NCBI GenBank assembly: GCA_023132135.1
Contig: JAGLYR010000227.1
Span: 1 to 15,357, forward strand
Direction: 5' to 3'
Origin: Candidatus Eiseniibacteriota bacterium
GTDB lineage: Bacteria; Arandabacterota; Arandabacteria; JAGLYR01
DNA length: 15,357 bases
Shown: positions 65 through 13,721 of the stretch, in pieces
Layout: the number at the start of each line of letters is the position of its first letter
Position numbering within the stretch: position 1 is the first letter of the stretch
Notes under the pieces: model-generated
Seen by the model: only the letters and a program-made list of their open reading frames with translations
Told to the model about the DNA's origin: nothing
The model's database searches: none
Made by a program: the position numbers and the translations under genes

Positions 65-1564
65 ATGCTCAAGAAAATCCTGGTAGCGAACCGAGGCGAA
101 ATCGCAGTCCGCGTCCTGCGCGCCGCGCGGGAAATGGGTATCCCCACGGTGGCCGTTTACTCCGAGGCCGACGACGACGCTTTCCATCTCCGGTTCGCCG
201 ACGAGACGGTCTGCATCGGGCCGGCTGAGCCGGCGGCCAGCTACCTGAACTTCGACCGCATCTTCGAAGCCGTTGAGACCACGGGCGCAGATGCCCTCCA
301 CCCGGGCTACGGGTTCCTTGCCGAGAACTATCAGTTCGCTCAAGAGTGCGAGAAGCAGGGCATCACCTTTATCGGCTCCTCCTCCGAATCCATCCGCCTC
401 CTGGGATCCAAGACCGAGTCACGGCAAGCCATGATGGCCGCAGGTATCCCGCTTATTCCCGGGATGCACGCCACGGCCGATTCCACCGAGGAGTTTGTTG
501 CCGAAGCCGGAAAGGTGGGCTATCCCGTCCTCATCAAGGCCGCCGGCGGCGGCGGCGGCAAGGGCATGAGGATTGTCCGGGATGAGTCGGGGCTGGAGGA
601 AGCGGTAGCGGCTGCTCGCCGCGAGGCCGGATCGGCCTTCGGGAACGATGCCGTGTACCTGGAGAAGCTGATCGAGAAACCGCGTCATGTGGAATTCCAG
701 ATCCTGGCGGACCAGCACGGGAACGCCATCCATCTCTTCGAGCGAGAGTGCTCCATCCAGCGGCGGCATCAGAAGATCGTCGAGGAGAGCCCATCGGTCG
801 CACTGGACCCGGAACTCCGCCAGAGGATGGGAGAAACGGCGGTCAAGGTCGTCCTTGCCAGCAACTACACCAACGCCGGCACCGTCGAGTTTCTGCTGGA
901 CCGGAACCGGGAGTTCTACTTTCTTGAGGTCAATACCCGGATCCAGGTGGAACACCCGGTGACGGAGCTCATCACAGGGATCGATCTGGTGAAAGCCCAG
1001 ATACGGATTGCCGCGGGAGAACCTCTGGGAATTCGACAGGAGGATCTCTTGCAGCGGGGGCATGCCATCGAGTGCCGGGTGTACGCCGAGGACCCCGAGA
1101 ACAACTTCCTCCCCTGCGCAGGGAAAATCCTGTTTGCGGAGGAACCGGTGGGACCGGGAATCCGGGTGGATTCCGGGATCTACTCCGGCTACACGGTTCC
1201 GGTACACTACGATCCCATTCTCTCGAAGGTTATCGTCTGGGCGGAAACCCGGGACGAGGCCATCCAGAAAATGAGACAGGCCCTGGCTGCCTATCCGATC
1301 CTGGGCATCCGAACCATCGTGCCATTCCTCGGGGCCGTTCTGGACCACCCGGAGTTCGTGGGGGGAAACACCTACACCGACTTCATTGATGAGCACTTGA
1401 AGGACTGGACCCTCGAGACGGACGAGGGGGATGTTCTGGACGCGGCCCTGATTGCCGGCGCCCTGGCAACCAGCAAGCGAACCACGGATCTTCCCGCCGG
1501 CGTCCGCCGGATGCCGACTCCCTGGGAAACTCTGGGGAAATGGGAAATCGCCGCGAGGTCGTAG
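65..1564 (+). CDS. accC: Biotin carboxylase subunit of a biotin-dependent carboxylase (AccC/PycA family)
   Basis: The family carboxylates carrier-bound biotin using ATP and bicarbonate, in the cytoplasm. The 499-residue protein is full length. It opens with the N-terminal motif KKILVANRGEIAVRV and has an ATP-grasp core with the glycine-rich loop AAGGGGGKGM (Lys158 and Lys166). The signature EVNTRIQVEHPVTE gives Glu288, Asn290 and Arg292, the same numbers as the Escherichia coli AccC active site. A C-terminal biotin carboxylase domain follows, with HAIECRVYAEDP and PYDPILSK-like motifs. The ATG is preceded by AGGA eight bases upstream. The biotin carrier gene starts 18 bp downstream, so the two are co-transcribed. 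Which acyl acceptor is used (acetyl-, propionyl-CoA or pyruvate) cannot be read from this subunit. The stop codon TAG opens a TAGCCCGCGG motif seen at other gene ends here. Confidence 0.97.
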   Translation: MLKKILVANRGEIAVRVLRAAREMGIPTVAVYSEADDDAFHLRFADETVCIGPAEPAASYLNFDRIFEAVETTGADALHPGYGFLAENYQFAQECEKQGITFIGSSSESIRLLGSKTESRQAMMAAGIPLIPGMHATADSTEEFVAEAGKVGYPVLIKAAGGGGGKGMRIVRDESGLEEAVAAARREAGSAFGNDAVYLEKLIEKPRHVEFQILADQHGNAIHLFERECSIQRRHQKIVEESPSVALDPELRQRMGETAVKVVLASNYTNAGTVEFLLDRNREFYFLEVNTRIQVEHPVTELITGIDLVKAQIRIAAGEPLGIRQEDLLQRGHAIECRVYAEDPENNFLPCAGKILFAEEPVGPGIRVDSGIYSGYTVPVHYDPILSKVIVWAETRDEAIQKMRQALAAYPILGIRTIVPFLGAVLDHPEFVGGNTYTDFIDEHLKDWTLETDEGDVLDAALIAGALATSKRTTDLPAGVRRMPTPWETLGKWEIAARS

Positions 1565-1582
1565 CCCGCGGAAAGGCAGATC

Positions 1583-2089
1583 ATGATCAGCGCGGAACTC
1601 GTGTACAACGGAGAGAGATACCTGGTTTCCGTGGACAGGCCGGAAGGAGCCACGGCCGCCAGGATTGATGAGCGATCCATTGAAGCCGAAATCACGAGGC
1701 TCAGCCCCGATTGCTTCTCCCTCAGAATCGGCCCGAAGCAAACCACAGTCTTCGTTGCCCGGTCCGACGAGAAGGTATTCGTTCATGTGGGCGGCCGGCT
1801 GTTCGAGTTCGAAGAGGCGGGTGCTCAGGGCGGGGCGTTCGCCGGCGGCGGCGGGGCTGTGGCCGACGGCTCGGTGTCCTCTCCCATGCCCGGACGCGTC
1901 GTCAAGATGGCCGTCCAGGAAGGCCAGCAAGTCGAGAAAAACCAGGTCCTCGTAATCGTCGAAGCCATGAAGATGGAGAACCCTCTCAAGTCTTCTGTGG
2001 CAGGCACGGTCAAGAAAATCCACTACGCGGAGGGCGATCTGGTGGACGCCGGAAAACCCATCGTCGAGGTCGAGCCCGCGGAGGAGTAG
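1583..2089 (+). CDS. Biotin carboxyl carrier protein
   Basis: This 168-residue protein carries biotin between the biotin carboxylase and a carboxyltransferase. Its C-terminal biotinyl/lipoyl domain (about residues 92-165) contains the biotinylation motif VEAMKMEN, with Lys130 as the modified residue, and the opening SSPMPGRVVKM typical of the fold. The first 80 residues form a separate beta-rich domain (YNGERYLVSVD, then VHVGGRLFEFEE). This resembles the linker domain in acyl-CoA carboxylases and decarboxylases more than the short N-terminus of fatty-acid AccB. A glycine/alanine hinge (GGAFAGGGGAV) separates the two domains. Together with accC this suggests a propionyl-CoA/acyl-CoA or pyruvate carboxylase-type enzyme; the carboxyltransferase subunit must lie elsewhere. 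The stop codon is the first codon of a TAGCCCGCATTTCTCA repeat element. Confidence 0.93.
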   Translation: MISAELVYNGERYLVSVDRPEGATAARIDERSIEAEITRLSPDCFSLRIGPKQTTVFVARSDEKVFVHVGGRLFEFEEAGAQGGAFAGGGGAVADGSVSSPMPGRVVKMAVQEGQQVEKNQVLVIVEAMKMENPLKSSVAGTVKKIHYAEGDLVDAGKPIVEVEPAEE

Positions 2090-2104
2090 CCCGCATTTCT
2101 CATC
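2087..2104. repeat. TAGCCCGC-type element beginning at a stop codon
   Basis: The 18 bases TAGCCCGCATTTCTCATC start exactly at the stop codon of the biotin carrier gene. Sixteen of the 18 match a segment inside the protease gene at 4712-4729. The first 16 match the copy at 13701 at 12 positions. Confidence 0.55.
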
Positions 2105-2180
2105 GGCATGCGTTGCCCGGCCGAGTCCAGGATCGGCAAACATCTGCAACCTGTTGAGCCACAACCTGTTCCGCCGCTAT

Positions 2181-2213
2181 TTGCTTGATCTCCATCCGGA
2201 GATATGATAGAAT
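2181..2213 (+). promoter_or_regulatory. Predicted sigma70-type promoter for the protease gene
   Basis: TTGATC (2185-2190) and TAGAAT (2208-2213) are separated by 17 bp and match the -35 and -10 consensus at 4 and 5 of 6 positions. An overlapping alternative is TTGCTT (2181-2186) with TATGAT (2203-2208) at 16 bp. The stretch is AT-rich compared with its surroundings. Transcription would start near 2220, just before the terminator-like hairpin at 2240-2270 and about 80 bp before the protease start. Confidence 0.5.
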
Positions 2214-2239
2214 AGAAACTGGTAAAGAGACGAGCCGCA

Positions 2240-2270
2240 GGGGGCCGGCCGCAAGGCCGGACCCCCTTTT
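2240..2270 (+). terminator. Intrinsic terminator-like hairpin in the protease leader
   Basis: Arms GGGGG-CCGGCC (2240-2250) and GGCCGG-A-CCCCC (2255-2266) pair over 11 bp with one bulged A. They close a GCAA tetraloop and are followed by TTTT (2267-2270). It could terminate the carboxylase transcript. It lies after the predicted protease promoter, so it may instead attenuate that transcript. The protease ribosome binding site GAGGAGGT is at 2286-2293. Confidence 0.7.
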
Positions 2271-2298
2271 GTATTGCGTGCCGTAGAGGAGGTACGAA

Positions 2299-5200
2299 GT
2301 GAGAAGCCGCCATGTACTGATCGGGGTTCTGGCGACGATCTTTCTGGGTTCAGGTTCCGTTTGCGCGGAGCCAACCTGGATTCCCCTTGGGCCGGGCAAT
2401 CCCGGAGACCCCGTTTCCATCGACCTCCTCCTCGCAACCCCGGACGAAGTGGTGCTGGAGATCCGGATTCCCGGGTTCTTCGCCGAGGAAACCGCGACCG
2501 CCCACGGCTCCTTCACGCGAATCAGAATTCCGGGTTGTGGCCGGACAGCCCGCATTGGAAACGCGCTTCTACCCATTTTGAGGAAGGCCATCGAGGTTCC
2601 GCAGGGTTCCGCGCCGCAAATCGAGATCCTGGAGCAGACGACCTCGCGATACGATCTTCGGGGACTGGGGATGCCCCCGCGCGTGTTCCCTGTTCAGGCC
2701 CCCGTGGAGAAGATGCCCGGGGCCAGGGAATCCGCCCCATTCTCCCTCTCCATGGATTTCTATGCATCCCATTCGTCGTATCCGAAAGATCTCGCCCGGG
2801 TGACCGAAACGGGTCAGATCCGAGCCCATCGATTTGCGATGCTGCAGTTCGCGCCCGTGATCTACGTGCCGGCGCAGGGGACAATCGAGGCGACTGAGCG
2901 GATGGTCGTGAGGATCACGAACCCCGGCGCAGATCTTATGCGAACCCGGCAGGTTCTTGACCGGTACGCCTCCCCGGAGTTCGACGAGATCGCGTCACGG
3001 GTGCTTCTGAACCGTCGGGCCGGATCTGCCAAGGCCGTGCCCCCGTTGCCCGCGGGGTATCTCATCATCACCAACGCCGGCTTCTACGACGAGATGCAAC
3101 CTCTCGCCCAATGGAAAAACGGCAAGGGGTACCAGACCACCGTGACTCGCACATCCGACATTCCAGGCGGCGCCACGACAGCAGCCATCCGGGATTACAT
3201 CCAGGACGCATACGACAACTGGGACATCCCTCCAGCCTTCGTCCTTCTCGTAGGTGACGTGGCGGACATCCCCAACTGGACGGGGACCACTTCCAGCAAT
3301 CCGCCCACGGACCTCTACTACAGCACCCTGGCGGGCGAGGACTTCGTCCCCGACCTGGGAATTGGGCGCTTTTCCGTGGCGACCTCCGCACAGGCCGCCG
3401 CTCTGGTCCAGAAAACCATCGACTACGAGAAACTCCTCATTGCCTCAGGAACCGCCTGGCTCAAGAAAGCCGTATTCATGGCATCCGAGGACAACTACAC
3501 AGTTTCCGAGGGAACTCACGACTACTGCATCACGAACTACATGGACCCGGCGGGCTTCACTTCGGACAAGCTCTACTGCCACACCTGCGACGCCACCACG
3601 CAGCAGGTGAGGGACGCGTTCAACAACGGCCGGGTACTGGGGATTTACTCGGGCCACGGCGGCACAACCTCGTGGGTCGACGGTCCAGCCTTTTCCCAGA
3701 GCGACGTCAATGCTCTCACGAATCTCGACCTGTACCCCTTTGTGCAGAGCTACGCCTGCTACACGGGCAACTACACGCTCTCCGAGTGCTTCGCGGAAAC
3801 CTGGATCCGGGGTTCCGGGAATGGGAGTCTGGCTTTCTGGGCTTCCTCGGTGACCTCTTACTGGGACGAAGACGACGTGCTGGAAAAAGGCGTCTTCCGC
3901 GCGCTGTTCGAGGACGGCGTCACCTGGATCGCCGGAATGACCAACCAGGGCAAGTGGTCTGTCTACGAACACTACAGTGGCGGCGGATCGACACAGCGCT
4001 ACTACGAGATGTACAACCTGATGGGCGATCCTTCCCTGGACGTATGGACCGATTATCCAACCTCCATGGCCGTCACCCATCCGGGCACCTGTCCCGTGGG
4101 CGCCGGATCCTACACAGTCCACGTGGAGGACGGGCGCGGCCCGCTGGCGGATGCTCTCGTCTGCCTGAACATGCAGGGGGATGTGTACAGGACCGCCTAT
4201 ACCGACGCCTATGGGGATGCGGGCCTCGTTCTTGATCCGCCACCGCTCGAGACGGGAACCATGGACCTCACGGTGACCTGCCACAACTTCGCGCCGGCGC
4301 TGGAAACCGTGGAGGTGGTCATTCCGTCCATAGTCTCCGTCGTCCCGGACACCGTCCAGGTCCAGACAGCCACGGCAGTCACCGTCACGGTTCAGGACAC
4401 TCTGTTCCAGCCCATCGCAAACGTGGTCGTCACCATCGATGGCTGGGGTCTCGATCCCGCTCTGGTGGATACGACGGACAAGGCCGGCCAGGCTGTGATC
4501 ACTGTAGATGCACCGTACGGGGAAATCCTCGCGGTCGTGGGCCGGGAAATCGGAGAAAGCCATGATTGCTTCGAGCGTTCCATCGCCGTTGCCGGAGCCT
4601 CTACCCTCCCCAATCCCAGAGTTGAAGCCCGCGTGGATGAGCTGGGCCTTCTGGGAGCCGTTGCCCCGTACTACGAAGGGACCATCACGGGCCGGGCGTC
4701 TCACGCGGGGTTAGCCCGCGTTTCTCACCAGGAATCTGCTGCGGCGACGAAGCCCGGTGAGGAATGCGGACTGGACCTGTTTGCCGTAGGCTGCGGTGTG
4801 GACGCCTTCGTCTCCTCCACCGCGGACACGGCCGTCGTTCGAGTCACACCGGTGAGTCTTGGGGCTATTACCGTAGCCATAACCTGTCCGGGATTCGGAA
4901 TCTACACCGAAGAGGTTCCCGTGATCGATGTCTACGGCCTCCTCTCGGGAACGGTGCGGGACTCATCAACCGCTGATCCCCTGCCGGGCGTACCCGTGGC
5001 TGTCTTCACTGCCGGAGCGGATACCGCCCTGGTTCCGCCCTTTTTCGAAGCGACTACCGATGCGGGAGGAGGATACGCATCTCCCGACAGCATCTCCGCC
5101 GGCCCCTATGATGTGTATGCATCCAACTTCGGCTACCTGGATTTCGTTGGGAACACCACGGTGTACTGGGGCGTCAACACCTATGACATCGACATGACCC

Positions 5201-7152
5201 CTGCCCCATCGGGAATGGTCTCAGGGACTGTAACCGAAGAGGGCACCGGGAGACCCATCACGGCAACCGTCAGAATCTACCGGAGCGACGACATGTCGCT
5301 CCACTCTCAGACCACCTCCGATTCCCTGGCCGCCGGTGCGTATTCGACGGCGCAGTTGCCGTATTTCACCTACCTCTTCCGCGTGAGCGCCGCCCACTTC
5401 ATGACCCAGAACGTCTACATCGCCGTTGACGAAGCAGCCGAGGCCATGAGCTTCCAGATGCTCCCCACCCAGGGCAACCTCCTGGTGATTGACGACGACA
5501 CGGGAGACAAGACGACTGAACCCAAGCGGGGCCCCAAGCGCCGGATGATCCCCTGTGACGGCCGGGACGCAGGCGAAAGCGAGAAGGAGAAAGCGGCGGC
5601 CATGATTGCCCAGGACCTACTGAACTTTGGTTACGACGTGACCACCGAGACGTCCGCATCCACGGATCCCACAACCTGGCTCAACTACGATGCGGTGATC
5701 TGGAGCAGCGGGGACGATACCGCTCCGGTTTCGGTCTCAACGTACCGATCCGGCCTCAATGCTTACGTGGCCTCCCACGGCAAGCTGCTGATTGAGGGCG
5801 GCGAGGTCGGCTACGACGCGGCCAGCTATCCCGGCTACCCGAATTTCGCGGACAGCACCCTCCACGTCGCTGACTGGGAGCACGATTCGTCGGGCAACCT
5901 GACCCTGGACAACCCGGCACACCCCATGGCTGCCACACCCAACCTGCTTCCGGCTGCCCTGCCCATGAGCTACGACAACTACGGCGACCAGGATGCGCTG
6001 ATTCCCGATGCGGAGACCGGGATCCTGTACGGCTGGAGTTCCTACGCGGGGCAGGGCGGCGTGCTGGTGTACGATGACAACCCCGATCCTCAATCGTCCC
6101 AGGTGGTCTTCTTTTCCTTCGACTACGGCAACGTGACGGACACCCAGGGTCGAAAGGATCTCCTCGAGAACGCCATCGCCCATCTTCTGGCCCCGGAATC
6201 CACCCCCGAGGGATCGATCCGCGGCCGGGTCCGACTGTTCGATGAAACCAGCCACGAAGGCGTGATCGTTCGAACCTATCCCATGGGCCTGGCTGATACC
6301 ACGGACTCGGCGGGGAACTACCGGATCGACGGTTTCCATAACGGGACGTATCTCGTGACGGCGAGCAAGACCGGGTTCGCGGATTCGACCGTGAGTATCC
6401 AGATCATCGATGGCGGGACGCTGGAAAACATTGACTTCATGCTCTTCCCCGTCTTCGAGTACATGGACAGCCCGGAGATCGCAATCCCGGACAATAACCC
6501 TGCCGGGATCCGCGTCTACATCGACGTTCCCGACGACCTGGGAATCGTGTCCGTTGCATGCTACGTCGACCTCTCTCATTCTTTCCGCGGAGACCTGCTG
6601 GTGGAGCTGACATCTCCCCAGGGAACCACGGTTCGCCTCCACGACCGGACCGGTGGCTCGTTGGATGATATTGTCACCTGGTATGATTTCGAGACTCCCT
6701 GTGACGGTCCGGGCTCCATGGGCGATCTCGTCGGCGAATCTGCCTTGGGACAGTGGGAACTCTACGTGAGCGACCAGGCCTCCTACGATACCGGGACGTT
6801 GCACACGTGGGGCCTCCGGATTTCGGCTCCGCAGATGTCTGCGGTGGAGGAAGAAACCGCCCGCGGTATCCCCGGGACCTGTTTCCTGGCGCAGAACTAC
6901 CCCAACCCGTTCAATCCGCTGACTCACATCCGGTTTGGCTTGCCCAAGGCCGGCCGCGCGGAGATCTCCATCTTCAACATCAAGGGACAGCGGGTGGCAG
7001 TGCTGGCCTCAGGCCACTTTGAGGCCGGGATACATACCGTCGCATGGGACGGGACCGACGGCAGAGACCATGCTGTGGCTAGCGGCATCTACTTCTGCAA
7101 ATTCGAGGGGGAAGATTACGAGGCGGTGAATCGGATGGTGTTGCTGAAATAG
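2299..7152 (+). CDS. Secreted gingipain-like cysteine protease (peptidase C25) with multidomain tail and type IX sorting domain
   Basis: This 1617-residue exported protein starts at GTG behind a strong GAGGAGGT site. Residues 1-23 look like a signal peptide (cleavage near VCA/EP), followed by a propeptide-like region. The C25 catalytic domain (about 255-590) has YSGHGG with His453 and SYACYTG with Cys487, a His-Cys spacing close to that of RgpB gingipain. Next come Ig-like beta domains (about 595-875), two carboxypeptidase-regulatory-like domains (about 880-960 and 971-1053) and a glutamine-amidotransferase-like fold from LLVIDDD (1061-1290). That fold has EGGE where a nucleophile Cys would sit. 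A third regulatory-like domain (1305-1386) and a proprotein-convertase P domain (1392-1510, SFRGDLLVELTSPQGT) follow. The end is a FlgD-like C-terminal domain with NYPNPFNP at 1533-1540, the T9SS/FCB cell-surface sorting type. Cleavage specificity cannot be inferred. A palindromic repeat lies in frame near residues 801-811. The protein probably digests extracellular protein. Confidence 0.9.
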   Translation: MRSRHVLIGVLATIFLGSGSVCAEPTWIPLGPGNPGDPVSIDLLLATPDEVVLEIRIPGFFAEETATAHGSFTRIRIPGCGRTARIGNALLPILRKAIEVPQGSAPQIEILEQTTSRYDLRGLGMPPRVFPVQAPVEKMPGARESAPFSLSMDFYASHSSYPKDLARVTETGQIRAHRFAMLQFAPVIYVPAQGTIEATERMVVRITNPGADLMRTRQVLDRYASPEFDEIASRVLLNRRAGSAKAVPPLPAGYLIITNAGFYDEMQPLAQWKNGKGYQTTVTRTSDIPGGATTAAIRDYIQDAYDNWDIPPAFVLLVGDVADIPNWTGTTSSNPPTDLYYSTLAGEDFVPDLGIGRFSVATSAQAAALVQKTIDYEKLLIASGTAWLKKAVFMASEDNYTVSEGTHDYCITNYMDPAGFTSDKLYCHTCDATTQQVRDAFNNGRVLGIYSGHGGTTSWVDGPAFSQSDVNALTNLDLYPFVQSYACYTGNYTLSECFAETWIRGSGNGSLAFWASSVTSYWDEDDVLEKGVFRALFEDGVTWIAGMTNQGKWSVYEHYSGGGSTQRYYEMYNLMGDPSLDVWTDYPTSMAVTHPGTCPVGAGSYTVHVEDGRGPLADALVCLNMQGDVYRTAYTDAYGDAGLVLDPPPLETGTMDLTVTCHNFAPALETVEVVIPSIVSVVPDTVQVQTATAVTVTVQDTLFQPIANVVVTIDGWGLDPALVDTTDKAGQAVITVDAPYGEILAVVGREIGESHDCFERSIAVAGASTLPNPRVEARVDELGLLGAVAPYYEGTITGRASHAGLARVSHQESAAATKPGEECGLDLFAVGCGVDAFVSSTADTAVVRVTPVSLGAITVAITCPGFGIYTEEVPVIDVYGLLSGTVRDSSTADPLPGVPVAVFTAGADTALVPPFFEATTDAGGGYASPDSISAGPYDVYASNFGYLDFVGNTTVYWGVNTYDIDMTPAPSGMVSGTVTEEGTGRPITATVRIYRSDDMSLHSQTTSDSLAAGAYSTAQLPYFTYLFRVSAAHFMTQNVYIAVDEAAEAMSFQMLPTQGNLLVIDDDTGDKTTEPKRGPKRRMIPCDGRDAGESEKEKAAAMIAQDLLNFGYDVTTETSASTDPTTWLNYDAVIWSSGDDTAPVSVSTYRSGLNAYVASHGKLLIEGGEVGYDAASYPGYPNFADSTLHVADWEHDSSGNLTLDNPAHPMAATPNLLPAALPMSYDNYGDQDALIPDAETGILYGWSSYAGQGGVLVYDDNPDPQSSQVVFFSFDYGNVTDTQGRKDLLENAIAHLLAPESTPEGSIRGRVRLFDETSHEGVIVRTYPMGLADTTDSAGNYRIDGFHNGTYLVTASKTGFADSTVSIQIIDGGTLENIDFMLFPVFEYMDSPEIAIPDNNPAGIRVYIDVPDDLGIVSVACYVDLSHSFRGDLLVELTSPQGTTVRLHDRTGGSLDDIVTWYDFETPCDGPGSMGDLVGESALGQWELYVSDQASYDTGTLHTWGLRISAPQMSAVEEETARGIPGTCFLAQNYPNPFNPLTHIRFGLPKAGRAEISIFNIKGQRVAVLASGHFEAGIHTVAWDGTDGRDHAVASGIYFCKFEGEDYEAVNRMVLLK
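4703..4729. repeat. TAGCCCGC-type palindromic element inside the protease coding sequence
   Basis: Arms ACGCGGG (4703-4709) and CCCGCGT (4715-4721) pair perfectly around GTTAG. The stretch TAGCCCGCGTTTCTCACC (4712-4729) matches 16 of 18 bases of the element at the biotin carrier stop codon. Here the TAG is out of frame, and the protein reads LARVSH across it, in a low-complexity stretch between beta domains. Confidence 0.45.
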
Positions 7153-7178
7153 GCGCCTCGTGATTCGTGCGCGGCAAC

Positions 7179-7200
7179 GGCCGGCCGCAAGCGACCGGCC
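7179..7200. other. GC-rich hairpin after the protease gene
   Basis: GGCCGG (7179-7184) pairs with CCGGCC (7195-7200), with an inner CGC/GCG pairing. It shares GGCCGGCCGCAAG with the terminator-like hairpin before the protease at 2243-2255. There is no T-tract after it, so it may be a weak or Rho-assisted transcript end, or just a copy of the same repeat. Confidence 0.4.
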
Positions 7201-7405
7201 ATTACCATGTGGAGCAGGGTCGTTCCCTCTGCTTTTCCGAAACGTCAAGAACAAACCGCCCGTGAGCCCCACGCCGATCCGGGATCAATACACACTCACC
7301 GGCACCCCCACTCCATCCTCAACCAGTATAGATGGGGCTTTCCCCGTGACGGTCCATTTCGATACACAGGCAGACCAATATACCATCGTCTTTCTCCATT
7401 GACAA

Positions 7406-7419
7406 GGTCCAATTGGACC
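7406..7419. promoter_or_regulatory. Perfect 14-bp palindrome, possible operator
   Basis: GGTCCAATTGGACC is fully self-complementary. It lies directly after TTGACA (7399-7404) in the long spacer. A partial echo (GGACCCTCCAATT) follows about 20 bp later. A dimeric DNA-binding protein site is possible, but no acceptable -10 box accompanies it. Confidence 0.3.
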
Positions 7420-7558
7420 CCTCCTGGACCCTCCAATTCGCGGCCCCTGTCTACCAGGAACCACGGCTCGGAGCAGGGCAAGGCAGGAAACGGCGAGCCG
7501 GCACGATCAGCCAGGCACCGTGAACGCTTTTGCTTTGACAGTGCCCGATGGCCTATGC

Positions 7559-7579
7559 TAGCCTGGATTGTTCAGGCTA
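7559..7579. repeat. TAGCCTG palindromic element, intergenic copy
   Basis: Arms TAGCCTG and CAGGCTA are perfectly complementary around a GATTGTT loop. Twenty of the 21 bases match the element at 13701-13721; the one difference is in the loop. Here it is not attached to a recognisable gene. Confidence 0.75.
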
Positions 7580-7586
7580 TAACTAG

Positions 7587-7614
7587 GGAAGGGACGTAAA
7601 TGGTAAATCGTAAA
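7587..7614. repeat. GTAAATG heptamer array, direct copy 1
   Basis: A 28-bp segment starts GGAAGGGAC and continues with 7-bp units of the GTAAATG/GTAAATC type. It is repeated without change at 7710-7737. Confidence 0.85.
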
Positions 7615-7673
7615 TGGGGGGAGACGGCGGAGGCAAGGAAGTAGGGGCCTATTCCAATGCAGTTCTCCGAGCG

Positions 7674-7696
7674 CCATTTACCATTTACAATTTACG
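7674..7696. repeat. GTAAATG heptamer array, inverted copy
   Basis: The 7-bp units ATTTACC, ATTTACA and ATTTACG are the reverse complement of the flanking arrays. They match the upstream copy at 21 of 23 positions. In RNA this segment could pair with either direct copy. Confidence 0.8.
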
Positions 7697-7709
7697 GGTG
7701 TTGGTTTTC

Positions 7710-7737
7710 GGAAGGGACGTAAATGGTAAATCGTAAA
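7710..7737. repeat. GTAAATG heptamer array, direct copy 2, abutting a ribosome binding site
   Basis: This copy is identical over 28 bp to 7587-7614. Its last bases (AAA, 7735-7737) run into the ribosome binding site AAAGGAGGG (7735-7743) of the S-adenosylhomocysteine hydrolase gene. Confidence 0.85.
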
Positions 7738-7747
7738 GGAGGGTAGT

Positions 7748-9001
7748 GTGTCGTCAGTCATGAATGCCGATCAGCTGGTGGAAATGGGGAAACTGCGTAC
7801 GGAATGGGCGGCACTCGAAATGCCTGTGCTGGCTCTGGAGCGCGAGCGTCTGGTGAAAGAACGTACGTTTGATGGAATGCGCATTGCAATCTGCGCACAC
7901 CTAACGTCCGAGACAGCCAACCTGGGACGGGCCCTCGTGGCGGGCGGCGCATCCTTGGCCATGACCGCCTCCAATCCCCTCTCCACACAGGACGATGTCG
8001 TCGAGCTCATGAGGAGCGAAGGAGCGAGGGTTCACGGAAAAAAGGGCGAGGATATTGACTCGTACAATGAGGGGATCGTGGAAGCGGTGGGAACAGACCC
8101 TCATCTGGTAATCGACGATGGCGGCGACCTCATCAGCTACATTCACCTTCACCGCAAGGATCTGATTGGCAACGTCATCGGCGGCGCGGAGGAGACCACT
8201 ACGGGTGTTAAACGTCTCCGGAACATGGAGAAGGCGGGCACACTGTTGTTTCCGGTTATCGCAGTCAATGACTGCCAGACCAAGATGCTCTTCGACAACC
8301 GGTACGGGACCGGCCAGAGCACCATCGACGGAATCCTGCGGGCCACGAACCGGATGATCGCCGGAGCCAATTTTGTGGTGGGCGGCTACGGCTGGTGCGG
8401 CCGGGGAGTCGCCAGTTGCGCCAAGGGACTGAACGCCCATACGATTGTCACCGAAATCGATCCTGTCCGCGCTCTCCAGGCCGCCATGGACGGCCACCGC
8501 GTTATGACCATGGAGGAAGCCGCCGAGGTTGGCGATTTCTTTGTTACGACGACCGGGAACCGTTCCATCATCCGGCTCGAGCACATGACCAGGATGAAAG
8601 ATGGCGCTATCATCGCCAACTCCGGCCACTTCGACGTTGAGATCGACATGGACGATCTCAGGAATGCGGCCAAGAGCACTCGCCCGGTCCGCCATTGCCT
8701 GGATGAATTCGAATTCCAGAACGGTCGCCGGATCTACGTAGTCGGGGAGGGTCGCCTGAGCAACCTCGCCAGCGCAGAGGGCCATCCGGCATCGGTGATG
8801 GACATGAGTTTCGCCGATCAGGTGCTGTCGCTGGAATACCTGGTGAAGAACAAGGGCAATCTCTCCAACGCCGTGCACCGGATTCCGTTGGAGTTGGACC
8901 AGCGCGTCGCCATGCTGAAGCTGAAAACTATGGGCGTGGAGATCGACCAGCTCACCGAGAAGCAGAACGAGTACCTGAATGCCTGGGAGTCGGGAACGTA
9001 G
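7748..9001 (+). CDS. ahcY: S-adenosylhomocysteine hydrolase (adenosylhomocysteinase), short archaeal/thermophile type
   Basis: The family hydrolyses S-adenosylhomocysteine to adenosine and homocysteine with bound NAD, clearing the inhibitor left by methyltransferases. The 417-residue cytoplasmic protein has the substrate-site signatures EMPVL and NPLSTQDD, then EETTTG (Glu149) and NDCQTKMLFDNRYGTGQS with Lys179, Asp183 and Asn184. The NAD-binding loop is GGYGWCGRG (212-220), and NSGHFD holds His294. It lacks the long insert and the C-terminal Lys/Tyr tail of proteobacterial and eukaryotic enzymes, and ends LTEKQNEYLNAWESGT like archaeal and Thermotoga-type forms. Some of those prefer S-inosylhomocysteine, so substrate choice is not certain. 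GTG is chosen as the start because AAAGGAGGG lies five bases upstream; an in-frame ATG at 7760 is too far from it. Proline dehydrogenase follows after 56 bp. Confidence 0.93.
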   Translation: MSSVMNADQLVEMGKLRTEWAALEMPVLALERERLVKERTFDGMRIAICAHLTSETANLGRALVAGGASLAMTASNPLSTQDDVVELMRSEGARVHGKKGEDIDSYNEGIVEAVGTDPHLVIDDGGDLISYIHLHRKDLIGNVIGGAEETTTGVKRLRNMEKAGTLLFPVIAVNDCQTKMLFDNRYGTGQSTIDGILRATNRMIAGANFVVGGYGWCGRGVASCAKGLNAHTIVTEIDPVRALQAAMDGHRVMTMEEAAEVGDFFVTTTGNRSIIRLEHMTRMKDGAIIANSGHFDVEIDMDDLRNAAKSTRPVRHCLDEFEFQNGRRIYVVGEGRLSNLASAEGHPASVMDMSFADQVLSLEYLVKNKGNLSNAVHRIPLELDQRVAMLKLKTMGVEIDQLTEKQNEYLNAWESGT

Positions 9002-9013
9002 GGATCAAGAGCA

Positions 9014-9048
9014 GTCCCTGGTCCGTAGTCCCTAGTCCCTAGTCCAAG
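9014..9048. repeat. Heptamer tandem repeat, unit GTCCCTA (5 copies)
   Basis: Five contiguous 7-bp units read GTCCCTG, GTCCGTA, GTCCCTA, GTCCCTA and GTCCAAG, 35 bp in all. The array fills most of the spacer between the hydrolase and proline dehydrogenase genes. Its last unit supplies part of the AAGGA ribosome binding site (9046-9050). Confidence 0.85.
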
Positions 9049-9057
9049 GACCTTCTG

Positions 9058-9972
9058 GTGGGAATTAACCAAGCTGTTGTCGATCTCATCCCGAATCCCC
9101 TCGTGCGGGCATTCGCCGCTCCCTATGTCGCCGGTATCGGCCTCGAGTCGGGCGTAGACGCCGCCGACCGGTTCTTTCGTGAACGCAAGTTCCTCTCCAC
9201 ACTGGATGTCCTCGGCGAGGAATTGAACCGCGACGAGGATGTCGAGACGGCAGTCAACCTCTACCTGAAGATGGCCGGCTACTTCTCCAGCCGGCCCCAT
9301 TGCAGTATCTCCGTCAAGCCCACCGGAATGGGTATCCACAATAGCTACGAGTACTGCCGCGACAATGTCGAACGGGTTGTGAAGTCCGCCGTCGAGCACA
9401 GGATCGATGTGACCATCGACATGGAGGACCATACCCTGACCGACATCACGCTGCGGATGTACCGGGAGCTCCGGGAAAAGTACGAGAACGTCGGGACCGT
9501 CCTTCAGAGCCGGCTGTTCCGAACCGACAAGGACATCCACGACCTCCGGGATATCCCCGCCCGGATTCGTCTGTGCATTGGTATCTATGTCGAGCCGTCC
9601 GAAATTGCTATCACCAACAAGGCGGCCATGAAGCGGAAACTCCTCGAACAGGCCGGGAAAATGTTCGACTACGGCCACACCGTGGAATTCGCCACTCACG
9701 ATGAGCGCACAATCGACGAAGCGCTGGCGCTGGCGGACCGGAAGGGTGTGGCGAAGGAACGCTACGAATTCCAGTTTCTGATGGGTGTGCCCAGGGGAAA
9801 GCTCCAGCGGCAGCTGATTGCGGATGGAATCGGCGTTCGCCTCTACGTACCCTTCGCCAACGAGTGGAAGGATGCCTCCCACTACTGCAAGCGACGTCTC
9901 GCCAACAATCCCAACATGGCTTTCTACATTCTCGCCAACCTGCTGAGGAAAATCCTGTCTCCATCCGCGTAG
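9058..9972 (+). CDS. Proline dehydrogenase (monofunctional, FAD-dependent)
   Basis: The family oxidises L-proline to pyrroline-5-carboxylate and passes electrons through FAD to the quinone pool. The 304-residue length is close to the Thermus-type monofunctional enzyme. Barrel motifs appear in order: LDVLGE, SVKPT, IDMEDH (Asp121), QSRLFRT, RLCIGIYVEP, EFATHDE, EFQFLMGVPRGK and RLYVPFANEW. The substrate-binding arginine pair is Arg279-Arg280 in CKRRLANNP. GTG is the start, with AAGGA seven bases upstream. No pyrroline-5-carboxylate dehydrogenase lies next to it. It probably shares a transcript with the preceding hydrolase. The TAG stop faces the convergent cytochrome gene with only 4 bp between the stop codons and no visible terminator hairpin. 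Confidence 0.95.
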   Translation: MGINQAVVDLIPNPLVRAFAAPYVAGIGLESGVDAADRFFRERKFLSTLDVLGEELNRDEDVETAVNLYLKMAGYFSSRPHCSISVKPTGMGIHNSYEYCRDNVERVVKSAVEHRIDVTIDMEDHTLTDITLRMYRELREKYENVGTVLQSRLFRTDKDIHDLRDIPARIRLCIGIYVEPSEIAITNKAAMKRKLLEQAGKMFDYGHTVEFATHDERTIDEALALADRKGVAKERYEFQFLMGVPRGKLQRQLIADGIGVRLYVPFANEWKDASHYCKRRLANNPNMAFYILANLLRKILSPSA

Positions 9973-9976
9973 CAGG

Positions 9977-10585
9977 TCAAGGGACCGCGTGGGTCTCGGT
10001 GCTCTCGGGCGGAGCCTCGATGGGTGGGGCGTGGGTGATTCCGGCAATAGCTGTCCTGAATTCGAATCCGCTGAAGGTGGGGCTTTGCTCGTTGTGGCAT
10101 TTCAGGCAGGTCTTCTCTGAGATCTCCCATAACCCGGATTCAACGGCCTTCCCGTGATCCATCATCACCGGGAGCTTCTTGTAGTCGTTGCCCGGTCCGT
10201 GGCAGGACTCGCACTGGACACCATCTTCCAGCTTCAAGGCGCCCTTGACTTCTTCCTTCCTGAGTCCGTGCGCCGTCGAATGACAGCTGAGGCATTCAGG
10301 GGCCTCTTCGGCCGCGGTTTTCAGGCCCATTTCCCTGGCAATTTTCACCGAGGCTTCGCTGCTCAGGGTTGCATAGGCTCCAGCATGCGGACCCTTGAGC
10401 CAGGCCCCGTACTGGTTGCCCATTCTCTTGCTCTTGTGGCAGATCCTGCAGGACTTGACGCCAACGTACAGGGGAACTGCCGCGTCTTCCCTTTTCGCCT
10501 CGGCAGAAGGTGTCTTCTGCTGCCCCAACGCAGCAGCGGCCAGAAGCATCAGACCAATCACAATGGCGAATAGAAACCTGCGCAT
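9977..10585 (-). CDS. Periplasmic tetrahaem cytochrome c (cytochrome c554-like)
   Basis: This 202-residue exported electron carrier begins with a signal peptide, MRRFLFAIVIGLMLLAAAALG. Four CXXCH haem c sites lie at residues 46-50 (CRICH), 98-102 (CLSCH), 125-129 (CESCH) and 160-164 (CLKCH). Additional histidines (67, 106, 144, 185) could be distal ligands. The arrangement resembles cytochrome c554/c' domain proteins. The start is the ATG at 10585 because GGGAGG lies eight bases upstream and the signal peptide begins there; a longer frame reaching 10639 adds 18 unlikely residues. It follows the cytochrome c/b fusion gene after 60 bp on the same strand, so it is probably that complex's periplasmic redox partner. 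The physiological acceptor is unknown. Confidence 0.9.
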   Translation of the reverse strand: MRRFLFAIVIGLMLLAAAALGQQKTPSAEAKREDAAVPLYVGVKSCRICHKSKRMGNQYGAWLKGPHAGAYATLSSEASVKIAREMGLKTAAEEAPECLSCHSTAHGLRKEEVKGALKLEDGVQCESCHGPGNDYKKLPVMMDHGKAVESGLWEISEKTCLKCHNEQSPTFSGFEFRTAIAGITHAPPIEAPPESTETHAVP

Positions 10586-10631
10586 ACGCTTTGCCTCCCG
10601 ACACCTCCCGATTCTGCCACACCCACCGGCA

Positions 10632-10648
10632 CCAGTCAACCCAGGCTA
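10632..10648 (-). repeat. TAGCCTGG-type element beginning at a stop codon
   Basis: On the minus strand the stop codon of the cytochrome c/b fusion opens TAGCCTGGGTTGACTGG. It agrees with the 13701 element at 10 of the first 11 bases and then diverges. Confidence 0.4.
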
Positions 10649-12190
10649 GCGGCTTCGCAACCGCTCGTATTCCTCCCGATGGTCCCGTTTGAGATCTTCA
10701 ATCCGGATGCGGCCGTCAAGCCAGGATCGATCCATCGGAAAAATCCCCGGCCGCCAGTGCGCGTTGTACAGATGCCATACTCCGACAGCGAGGATCGCCA
10801 GAATCGCTTCCCACGCATGAATCACCCGAGCCAGATCTACGATGAAGAGCGGCCAGATCTCCTCAACCCACAGTACAAACCCCGACACTGTCATGACTGC
10901 GCCCCCGCACAGGAGGGCGAAATACTCCATCTTCTCCACGTACCCAAACCGGCCCTTTGAGGGTCTCTCGCTCCGCTTCCCCAACAGGTACCAAATGGTG
11001 CCGGCCAGTTCCCGGAGATCCGCCACCGACAGGCTCATCTTCCGCCGCTGCTCCCTACCCCGCCTGGAAACCGCAATGTACCGGAGATGGTAGAGGCCAA
11101 GGGCGATAAAGATGGCGGCTGCCCAGCGGTGAAGCTCTCCCCTCCAGGACATCAGGAACTCCGCAGCCGGCCAGTGTGTCGGAAGCCCGCCGGGAACCTT
11201 CAGCACAAGACCGCTCACCGCGAGTATGAGGAATGTTCCAATCAGCAGGCCGTGTTGAATCCTCTCACCAAGGGTCCATCGCAGGACCGTCCCCGACAGC
11301 TCGGTGTGGGAAGCACCATCATCAGGATGAAAACCCGCTCTGCGCCGCGCCCTGAAATCCAGCACGTTGTGCAGGAACATCGCGCTGATCAAGCCTGCGA
11401 TCACGAGCATATAGAATCCCCTGACGAGCCCGATGAGAGCACCCTTCTTCCCCCCGTAGATCGCGTGGGAACTTCCTCTCAGGAAGGCCGGTGTGGCCCG
11501 GGGATGGCATTCGGTGGCGCTGCATGTTTGGAGGAGATTCGCTATGTGCGTCGTTGAGGCGGGATCCTGACTGCTCCGGACATTGTGCGCTGTGTGGCAG
11601 GCTACGCAGTCGGCCACCCGCTTGTCTCCCAAGCGAATGGAGCGACCGTGAAAGGACTGGCGATACCCTCGAGCCCACTCCAGTCCGACGCCATGGGAGA
11701 CCATCAATGCTTCGTCTTCGTGGCACTGGGAGCACAGTAGAACCCGACTGCCGGCTGTCAGGGAATCCGCGGGAACCGGAGCATGAGGATCATGACACCA
11801 GAGGCATCCGGGGCCCGGCAGCTTAGCCCGCCCATGGACACTGCCATCGAACTCGTCCGTATCGTGGCAGGTCGCACAACCGGCGGTGGTCATCTCCTCG
11901 GAGGGATGCGGTTCAGATTCGGCGCCGAGATGACAATCGCCGCAGTCGAGGATGCCATGGGGCGACTGCTCGTACTGGGCGCCGCCGACCGACAGGGAAC
12001 GCGAGTCGCCCAGTACCAATCCCCCTGTGCCCGCCACCTCGTGGCAGCCGAGACAGTCGCCAGTTGTCACTGGAGGAGGCTCCGGCGCGCCGAAGGCGGC
12101 CGGAACCCCTACGCTGCCCACCAGGAATCCCAAGAGTCCCAGCCAACGACGAGGCGCGAGCTCACATGCTGCATTCACTGTTTTCCACAC
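10646..12190 (-). CDS. Heptahaem cytochrome c fused to membrane cytochrome b (quinol-oxidising type)
   Basis: This protein of about 514 residues probably moves electrons between membrane quinone and periplasmic carriers. After an N-terminal hydrophobic segment (LGLLGFLVGSVGVPAAFG) come six CXXCH sites, about residues 46-50, 83-87, 105-109, 129-133, 153-157 and 195-199. A seventh site has wider spacing, CSATECH (223-229), a CX4CH form known from cytochromes c3. The C-terminal half has about five membrane segments and histidines suited to b haems (such as GLYHLRY and VIHAWEAI), resembling cytochrome b561/formate-dehydrogenase gamma subunits. The open frame reaches back to a TTG at 12262 with a poor binding site. 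I prefer the GTG at 12190 because GGGGAG lies about 11 bases upstream and the signal sequence follows, though a GTG at 12178 is possible. The tetrahaem cytochrome gene is next in the operon. Confidence 0.85.
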   Translation of the reverse strand: MWKTVNAACELAPRRWLGLLGFLVGSVGVPAAFGAPEPPPVTTGDCLGCHEVAGTGGLVLGDSRSLSVGGAQYEQSPHGILDCGDCHLGAESEPHPSEEMTTAGCATCHDTDEFDGSVHGRAKLPGPGCLWCHDPHAPVPADSLTAGSRVLLCSQCHEDEALMVSHGVGLEWARGYRQSFHGRSIRLGDKRVADCVACHTAHNVRSSQDPASTTHIANLLQTCSATECHPRATPAFLRGSSHAIYGGKKGALIGLVRGFYMLVIAGLISAMFLHNVLDFRARRRAGFHPDDGASHTELSGTVLRWTLGERIQHGLLIGTFLILAVSGLVLKVPGGLPTHWPAAEFLMSWRGELHRWAAAIFIALGLYHLRYIAVSRRGREQRRKMSLSVADLRELAGTIWYLLGKRSERPSKGRFGYVEKMEYFALLCGGAVMTVSGFVLWVEEIWPLFIVDLARVIHAWEAILAILAVGVWHLYNAHWRPGIFPMDRSWLDGRIRIEDLKRDHREEYERLRSR

Positions 12191-12404
12191 GTCTGGTAAT
12201 ACTCCCCGACCGAGTGAACGGTTCCTTCCCAACGATGATTCAAGTTCCGGCCAGTGTCCCAAAGAACCCCGGAGATGTCCAGAGGGATCAGGAAACCGGG
12301 ATCAGGAATAGCTTGATCCCTTCCTCCGCGAGCTGTAGCCTATTGGGTTTGCTGGACGAGCGTCGGTGGGGATTCCTGTCTCTGTCCCATTGGGAGGCCC
12401 GAGA
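12191..12404. promoter_or_regulatory. Divergent intergenic region between the cytochrome operon and CoA-transferase
   Basis: These roughly 210 bp separate two divergent starts and must hold both promoters, but I cannot identify convincing -35/-10 pairs. TTGATC occurs at 12313 without a good partner. The region contains a repeated GGGATCA motif and an inverted copy of it (12284-12320). The ribosome binding site of the CoA-transferase, GGGAGG, is at 12392-12397. Confidence 0.5.
12284..12320. repeat. GGGATCA direct and inverted repeats, possible operator
   Basis: GGGATCA occurs at 12284-12290 and 12298-12304, a 14-bp period, and its reverse complement TGATCCC at 12314-12320. The second and third copies form a hairpin with a 9-nt loop. 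The 14-bp period is twice the 7-bp period of the other arrays. Confidence 0.45.
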
Positions 12405-13703
12405 ATGGGTTGGATGGACACATTTCGAGATAAATCAACAACACCGGAAGAGGCTGTCTTCTGCGTCAAGAGTGGGGATCGGCTCTACATCAGCGGCAAC
12501 GCCGCAACTCCCTCCCCCCTGATGGAAGCCCTGGCCACCCGCAAGGACGAGCTCAACGACGTGGAGATTGCCCACCTGCTCCTCTTCGGAGAAGATCCTC
12601 TGTCAACCCCGGAGATGGAGGGTCATTTCCGGCACAATTCGCTTTTCGTGGGGCCAGCCGACCGGAAAGCAGTGAACGAAGGCCGCGCCGACTACGTACC
12701 AGTTTTCCTCGGCGAGATTCCGCGTCTTTTCTACGATGGTCTGATGCCCATTGACGTGGCGATTCTCCACACCTCCATTCCCGACGAACACGGTTTCCTG
12801 AGTCTGGGAGTTGAAACACTCTGCTCCAAAGCAGCCGCCATGACCGCCCGGACCGTGATTGCTCTGGTCAACGAGAAAATGCCCCGGACACTCGGAGACT
12901 CCTTCATCCACATCAGTCGCGTCAGCCATTTGGTCGAAGTGTCGATGGACCTTCACGAACTGCCAAGGAAACCCGCCACCCAGATCGAGCAACGGATTGG
13001 CCAGCACATCGCGGGTCTCGTGGAGGATGGGGCCACACTACAGCTGGGCATCGGGGGAATTCCCGACGCCGTCCTGGCGGCCCTGAAGGACAAGAAGGAT
13101 CTCGGCATCCATACGGAGATGACCTCCGACGGAATCATGGAGGGCATAGAGGCGGGCGTGATCACTGGAGCAGCGAAGAACCTGCATCCCGGCAAGGTGC
13201 TGACCACGTTTCTTTTCGGGTCCACCAGACTCTACGAATTCGCCGACAACAACCCGATGTTCGAATGCCATCCTGTTGAGCACACGAACGATCCCTTCGT
13301 GATCAGCCAGAACGACAACATGGTCGCCATCAACTCGGCAGTCCAGGTCGACATCACAGGCCAGGTTTGCTCCGATTCCATCGGCACGACAATCTACAGT
13401 GGATTCGGGGGACAGGTGGACTTCATTCGCGGCGCAGCCCGATCCAAGGGAGGGAAACCTATCATTGCCCTGCCTTCCACCGCCAAGGGCGGCACGATCT
13501 CCCGGATTGCACCGGAGCTCCACCATGGCGCCGGAGTGGTCACCAGCCGCGCCGATGTCCACTACGTGGTCACCGAGTACGGCGTGGCCTTCCTCTACGG
13601 GAAGAACCTCAGGGAGCGCGCCAAGGCGCTTATCAACGTGACTCATCCAAACTTCCGGGAGGATCTGGAGAAGGCGGCCTACGAGCGGCATATCTACAGA
13701 TAG
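12405..13703 (+). CDS. 4-hydroxybutyrate/acetyl-CoA-hydrolase family CoA-transferase
   Basis: Members move CoA between acetyl-CoA and short carboxylic acids such as 4-hydroxybutyrate or butyrate, through a glutamyl-CoA thioester. The 432-residue protein matches the usual family length. The motif GIHTEMTSDG carries Glu238, the same position as the catalytic glutamate of the Clostridium aminobutyricum 4-hydroxybutyrate enzyme. Other family motifs are LGIGGIPDAV, the CoA-binding loop SGFGGQVDF (from residue 332), and the C-terminal EYGVAFLYGKNLRERA with LINVTHPNFREDL. ATG at 12405 is the start because GGGAGG lies seven bases upstream; a longer frame from a GTG at 12366 lacks a binding site. The exact acid substrate is not readable. 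The TAG stop is the first arm of a palindrome shared with the convergent DUF4416 gene. Confidence 0.93.
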   Translation: MGWMDTFRDKSTTPEEAVFCVKSGDRLYISGNAATPSPLMEALATRKDELNDVEIAHLLLFGEDPLSTPEMEGHFRHNSLFVGPADRKAVNEGRADYVPVFLGEIPRLFYDGLMPIDVAILHTSIPDEHGFLSLGVETLCSKAAAMTARTVIALVNEKMPRTLGDSFIHISRVSHLVEVSMDLHELPRKPATQIEQRIGQHIAGLVEDGATLQLGIGGIPDAVLAALKDKKDLGIHTEMTSDGIMEGIEAGVITGAAKNLHPGKVLTTFLFGSTRLYEFADNNPMFECHPVEHTNDPFVISQNDNMVAINSAVQVDITGQVCSDSIGTTIYSGFGGQVDFIRGAARSKGGKPIIALPSTAKGGTISRIAPELHHGAGVVTSRADVHYVVTEYGVAFLYGKNLRERAKALINVTHPNFREDLEKAAYERHIYR

Positions 13704-13721
13704 CCTGGATTATTCAGGCTA
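13701..13721. repeat. TAGCCTG palindrome carrying the stop codons of two convergent genes
   Basis: Arms TAGCCTG (13701-13707) and CAGGCTA (13715-13721) flank the loop GATTATT. The first TAG is the stop codon of the plus-strand CoA-transferase. The last CTA is the TAG stop codon of the minus-strand DUF4416 gene. A 20-of-21 identical copy lies at 7559-7579. It could act as a bidirectional transcript end, although no T-tract follows. Confidence 0.85.

Follow-up and report, generated by a model that had tools for sequence, protein, structure and literature searches.

TAGCC[C/T]G repeats at bacterial stop codons are probably IS1380-related mini-transposons that insert at CTAG

Mobile repeats that supply stop codons have already been described. 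The pneumococcal BOX repeat encodes the stop at the 3' end of a gene in 36 cases without evidence of protein truncation (PMC3049150), and GTAG REPs are palindromes whose TAG end often serves as the stop for the genes next to them (PMC3733652). Mycobacterial MIRUs are mobile repeats at gene boundaries that have little effect on genes (PMC12548453). IS630 transposons duplicate TA and prefer a TA within CTAG (Tenzen and Ohtsubo 1991, as cited in PMC2170065), and RUP, an IS630 MITE, occurs as small copies consisting only of terminal inverted repeats (PMC2229807). piggyBac elements, to which IS1380 is related, mostly duplicate TTAA, a 4-bp sequence (PMC10813416). In a partial literature search, we found no account of stop codons occupied by IS1380 MITEs.

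The TAGCC[C/T]G repeats analysed here resemble each of these systems in part. They share with BOX a small size, mobility, enrichment between convergent genes and the provision of stops, but differ in sequence and in the proposed transposase. Whereas GTAG REPs carry GTAG at one end and are linked to RAYTs, these repeats mostly show CTAG at each end and are not accompanied by a RAYT. MIRUs differ in sequence and lie at start codons with a coupled ORF. In contrast to IS630 and RUP, no IS630 transposase was found with the repeats. Their YTAR target resembles the piggyBac TTAA, and their arms match IS1380 ends (below), although the copies themselves are non-autonomous, 17–182 nt long and without a transposase.

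The window, a stretch of 15,357 nucleotides, contains 12 TAGCCYG sites where shuffling predicts 2.0. Scored against the 18-nt repeat consensus of their own genome, six of these sites are the ends of four true copies (2087, 4712, both ends of 7559–7579 and both ends of 13701–13721). The copy at 13701–13721 is a 21-bp minimal palindrome, TA[GCCTGGATTATTCAGGC]TA, with 0 mismatches to the family arm and a hairpin z of -4.1; its pattern occurs 23 times in the genome. Its ends are the stop codons of a CoA-transferase gene (plus strand, 13701–13703) and a convergent DUF4416 gene (minus strand, 13719–13721), both identified by Pfam, and the site at 13721 is thus the opposite arm of the palindrome that begins at 13701. 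At 2087–2102 (plus strand), a solo arm of the TAGCCCGCATTTCTCACC subfamily, exact over 16 nt and with 1 mismatch in 18, contributes the TAG that stops the biotin carrier gene; many other solo arms lie at stops in the genome.

The earlier note had also pointed to an off-gene copy at 7559 and one inside a protease gene at 4712, and both are real. The first is an intergenic minimal palindrome (7559–7579) with 1 mismatch in 18. The second is a 63-nt copy with both arms (4712–4774, plus strand; 0 mismatches in 18, hairpin z -4.3) within a C25-family protease gene (Peptidase_C25); read in frame as TTA-GCC, it adds ~21 residues to the protease and no stop. The claim that five of ten genes end in the motif stands for three genes, at 2087, 13701 and 13721, which represent two insertions. 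For the remaining two, the match is at chance level. The stop context of the biotin carboxylase gene (1562–1570, plus strand) matches over 9 nt only, with 9 mismatches in 18, which is no better than in-gene TAGCCYG sites, and its status as a true copy is not demonstrable. That of the cytochrome fusion gene (10638–10648, minus strand) matches over 11 nt only, with 6 mismatches in 18, a score that in-gene chance sites also reach; it is likewise not demonstrable as a copy and is either a degenerate remnant or chance. The TAGCCYG sites at 309, 11604, 11824 and 14800 are chance occurrences, and an Rfam search of the window returned no match.

The parent genome (G000) comprises 3.4 Mb in 345 contigs, of which we sampled 1.14 Mb together with the window. 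The commonest repeats of this sample start with TAGCC[TC]G (TAGCCTGGGTTATTCAGG, TAGCCTGGATTATTCATGAATCC, TAGCC[CT]GCATTTCTCACCAG and TAGCCTGGACTATGCACAAATCC). Complete copies range from a 17-nt core to 182 nt and have inverted ends, with an inverted repeat of approximately GCC[T/C]G[G/C][A/G]TT[A/T][T/C]TCA and, in nearly every case, TA at each end. They have the features of MITEs: terminal inverted repeats, no coding capacity, a length below ~600 bp and many copies (423 arms in 3.4 Mb). These MITE-like elements have TAGCC[C/T]G as their terminal inverted repeat. Taken alone, the 7-mer shows no genome-wide enrichment (895 occurrences vs 1,107 for the reversed pattern), whereas the 16-mer TAGCCYGSRTTHYTCA, allowing at most 1 mismatch, occurs 423 times vs 4.

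Several features of the surrounding sequence deserve mention. In this genome, many copies are bordered on one side by a second repeated module, a feature that an insertion model leaves unexplained. Other short dispersed modules (AGTCCCTAGTCCCTAG, AATAGACAATAGAGAATAGA, GTGACAGGTGACAGGGTGACA and ACGTAAATGGTAAATCGTAAATGG) occur in the window at 9024–9050 and 7587–7746 and in many contigs of the genome, joined in mosaics next to TAGCC elements. One D-type palindrome (L115, 7773–7830) has TTAA on each side plus a further shared GGAGTGAT/ATCACTCC inverted flank. Many contigs end within elements (for example L034, L045, L083 and L100); the repeats have probably broken up the assembly and concealed longer copies.

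We examined stop codons using gene calls from a purpose-written hexamer model (876 genes), cruder than standard gene-calling software. Of 258 arm ends, 65 coincide with the start of a called stop, and no other offset is represented more than 4 times. CCYG follows TAG at 86 of 475 TAG stops (18%) vs 119 of 8,648 in-gene TAGs (1.4%; Fisher p = 2e-57). Since the sample was partly chosen for hits, the fair figure comes from the contigs that were not, where 18 of 147 stops (12%) have it (Fisher p = 3e-11). The motif thus passes the frequency check laid out in the earlier note, and conservation extends well past position 8. Together with the repeat structure and the CTAG target described below, the exact placement of arms at stops bears out the proposal in the earlier note that a dispersed short element enters at the 3' ends of genes and provides their stop codon. 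Of the three stop codons, TAG is usually the least used; in this sample, from a genome of ~60% G+C, it is the commonest (475 of 876, or 389 when TAGCCYG stops are set aside), and it is likewise the commonest in the class relative G006 (102 of 228).

The flanks of the elements point to a specific target. Among unique-flank ends, 57% have C immediately ahead of TA (62% at stops and 54% elsewhere) vs 26% at other TAG stops, and other flank positions show no clear bias. In G006, C precedes TA in 56%. The target preference is thus YTAR, mostly CTAG. CTAG is rare in the parent genome (0.46 of expectation), and stops hold 28–30% of its non-genic CTAG sites. Insertion loci lie at stops in 58 of 165 cases, or 59 of 169 when the set of arms is varied slightly (35%; p = 0.21 vs the CTAG model). 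Given that these two proportions are so close, target choice accounts for most of the stop-codon habit. Plain TA targeting was rejected as it predicts only 6–11% of insertions at stops (11% in the parent genome) vs the 35–48% seen. In the small G006 sample of 48 loci, stops are used above the CTAG expectation (23 of 48, 48% vs 28%, p = 0.004), and context-weighted models place only 15–17% of insertions at stops; a residual preference for stops, or tolerance at them, may therefore exist beyond CTAG.

The target duplication may be 2 or 4 bp long. CTAG..CTAG pairs fit either length, and TTAG..CTAA pairs favour a 2-bp TA over the 4 bp usual for the related piggyBac elements. Among G006 arms, TTAG outnumbers CTAA by 20 to 2, which argues against a 4-bp direct repeat; a 4-bp duplication is thus disfavoured, and a duplication of 2 bp seems the better fit.

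These results also bear on an alternative in which selection holds the motif at stops as a functional signal of the 3' end, such as a terminator, a processing site or a ribosome-release site. Placement exactly at stops, the stable hairpins formed by complete copies and the richness of convergent gene pairs in elements (21 of 29 convergent loci are at stops) would all suit a signal, as would the solo arms of 16–18 nt that persist at stops where the remainder of the element is gone. Retention of the tip is expected in any case, however, because its loss would remove the stop. About two thirds of insertion loci lie away from stops, and the target C is about equally common there. Hairpins lack the T-tract of an intrinsic terminator: the 13701 copy is followed by CAATGG and the 7559 copy by TAACTAGG. 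Only 7–10% of genes carry the motif, and copies fall from 423 to 0–5 in most class relatives, unlike a core signal. We therefore consider a selected 3'-end signal very unlikely, and the suggestion of the earlier note that the motif works in ending transcripts, in 3' processing or in ribosome release finds no support here, the position of the repeats being explained by the CTAG target and the G at the element end.

An insertion event can be traced in a relative. Among seven genomes of the same class, G006 has 107 arms of type TAGCCCGGATTATTCA and the other six have 0–5; the G006 elements are a sister family and share the stop-codon habit. Copies in G006 are mostly 180–182 nt and are flanked by C..G in 11 of 27 cases, otherwise mainly by Y..R. 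The G006 rrf gene ends in EIMEV-TAG, and this TAG consists of the first letters of a 182-nt element. Read across from TA to TA, the site becomes GTC-TAG-GG, followed by 43 nt and then the next gene. In the parent genome and in G001, G002 and G004, the rrf orthologues have an ordinary stop after EIMEV or EIMEI and no element. The locus is thus a filled site with orthologous empty sites, for one site and between genera or families rather than between strains. Since the orthologues end at the same codon, the G006 insertion lies at the ancestral stop and left the protein unshortened. Outer-membrane proteins end in a terminal F, and several of the affected proteins do so as well. C-terminal truncation as the usual source of these stops is disfavoured because the rrf orthologues share their end codon and because of these terminal F residues.

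We then considered which transposase might move the elements. When public genomes were scanned for exact matches to a 24-mer of the parent-genome type, nothing was found, whereas a shorter arm pattern matched many: the arm CTAGCCYGGATTATTCAYRA is present in at least 119 stretches from many phyla. Dokdonella immobilis (L238) is one carrier of the arm. In this cross-phylum set, an open frame of at least 150 codons runs into the element TAG in 33 of 119 arms, vs 14 and 6 for the two alternative frames. A filamentous cyanobacterium (L214) has two arms around 1.6 kb with a single IS1380-family transposase (NF033539, E = 9e-111), forming a complete insertion sequence. Its left end is CTAGCCTGGATTATTCATGAA, and its terminal repeat CCTGGATTATTCATGAAT (left arm) is identical to the B-type arm of the parent genome. 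Two further bacteria (L230 and L221) have one arm each, and the frame of an IS1380 gene opens 50–65 nt inward of it. Three unrelated genomes thus have IS1380 genes bounded by, or next to, these repeats.

The parent genome has an IS1380 gene of its own (G000:C139; E = 7e-117), 37% identical to the L214 transposase. A D-type arm, GGTGAGAAATGCGGGCTA, lies ~215 nt past its stop as a matching right end. The left arm was not found, nor was an intact autonomous copy with both arms in this genome. On its upstream side, the gene abuts an apparent IS3-type OrfA on the other strand (L196, 780–2412), and the left end of this IS1380 element seems to have been lost. Judging from the terminal repeats that they share with the L214 insertion sequence, the elements are predicted to be non-autonomous relatives of IS1380.

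Two other transposase families were weighed as partners, and neither was found with these ends. The TA duplication and CTAG preference reported for IS630 would suit MITEs of an IS630/Tc1-mariner transposon, and a truncated IS630-like C-terminus adjoins one G006 element. Searches with PF13358 and NF033545, however, found no IS630 transposase in the parent genome, and the G006 fragment is next to a single arm rather than flanked on both sides. Given also the association of the repeats with IS1380 genes in unrelated genomes, an IS630 origin appears quite improbable. The G006 fragment itself (L176, 1420–1686; G006:C241), in which the IS630-like transposase C-terminus is fused to the end of the element, suggests that a deletion or an insertion brought two mobile elements together.

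GTAG-type REPs moved by RAYTs, with a TAG end that supplies stops, would likewise be short palindromes with the habit reported for such repeats (PMC3733652), and the genome has one weak Y1_Tnp match. Yet G precedes the TAG in only 10% of element ends, which is not the GTAG foot of REPs, and TAG is present at both ends rather than one. The longest copies reach 177–182 nt with long inverted repeats. No such repeat lies near the single Y1_Tnp locus, and a RAYT flanked by arms was not found. A REP/RAYT origin is extremely unlikely on this evidence.

We consider it highly probable, then, that TAGCC[C/T]G elements are IS1380-related, gene-less mini-transposons that insert at CTAG, and that genes survive because the first G of the element restores the stop. 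An IS1380-type transposase would place an element into YTAR, mostly CTAG, leaving TA at each end. Many non-genic CTAG sites are the NNC-TAG of stop codons, where insertion would give NNC-TA[G...C]TA-G; the first G of the element would remake TAG, and the protein would be unchanged. Such insertions, being harmless, would be retained, and those within genes would mostly be lost. Deletions may later reduce copies to short palindromes or solo arms, in which the TAG would have to remain as the stop of the gene.

A broader proposal is considerably more doubtful and on balance unlikely. Stops could be a preferred niche of IS1380-type MITEs beyond the frequency of CTAG, with the G end making insertion harmless; across several phyla, the elements could then be a standing source of stops and 3' hairpins that has helped to push stop usage towards TAG. 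The arm common to more than 100 contigs from many phyla ties a widespread small repeat to IS1380 insertion sequences. The case advises caution, as motifs at gene ends are not necessarily regulatory signals. A CTAG target and a G at the tip of the element offer a simple, testable reason for a harmless mobile repeat to lie exactly on stop codons.
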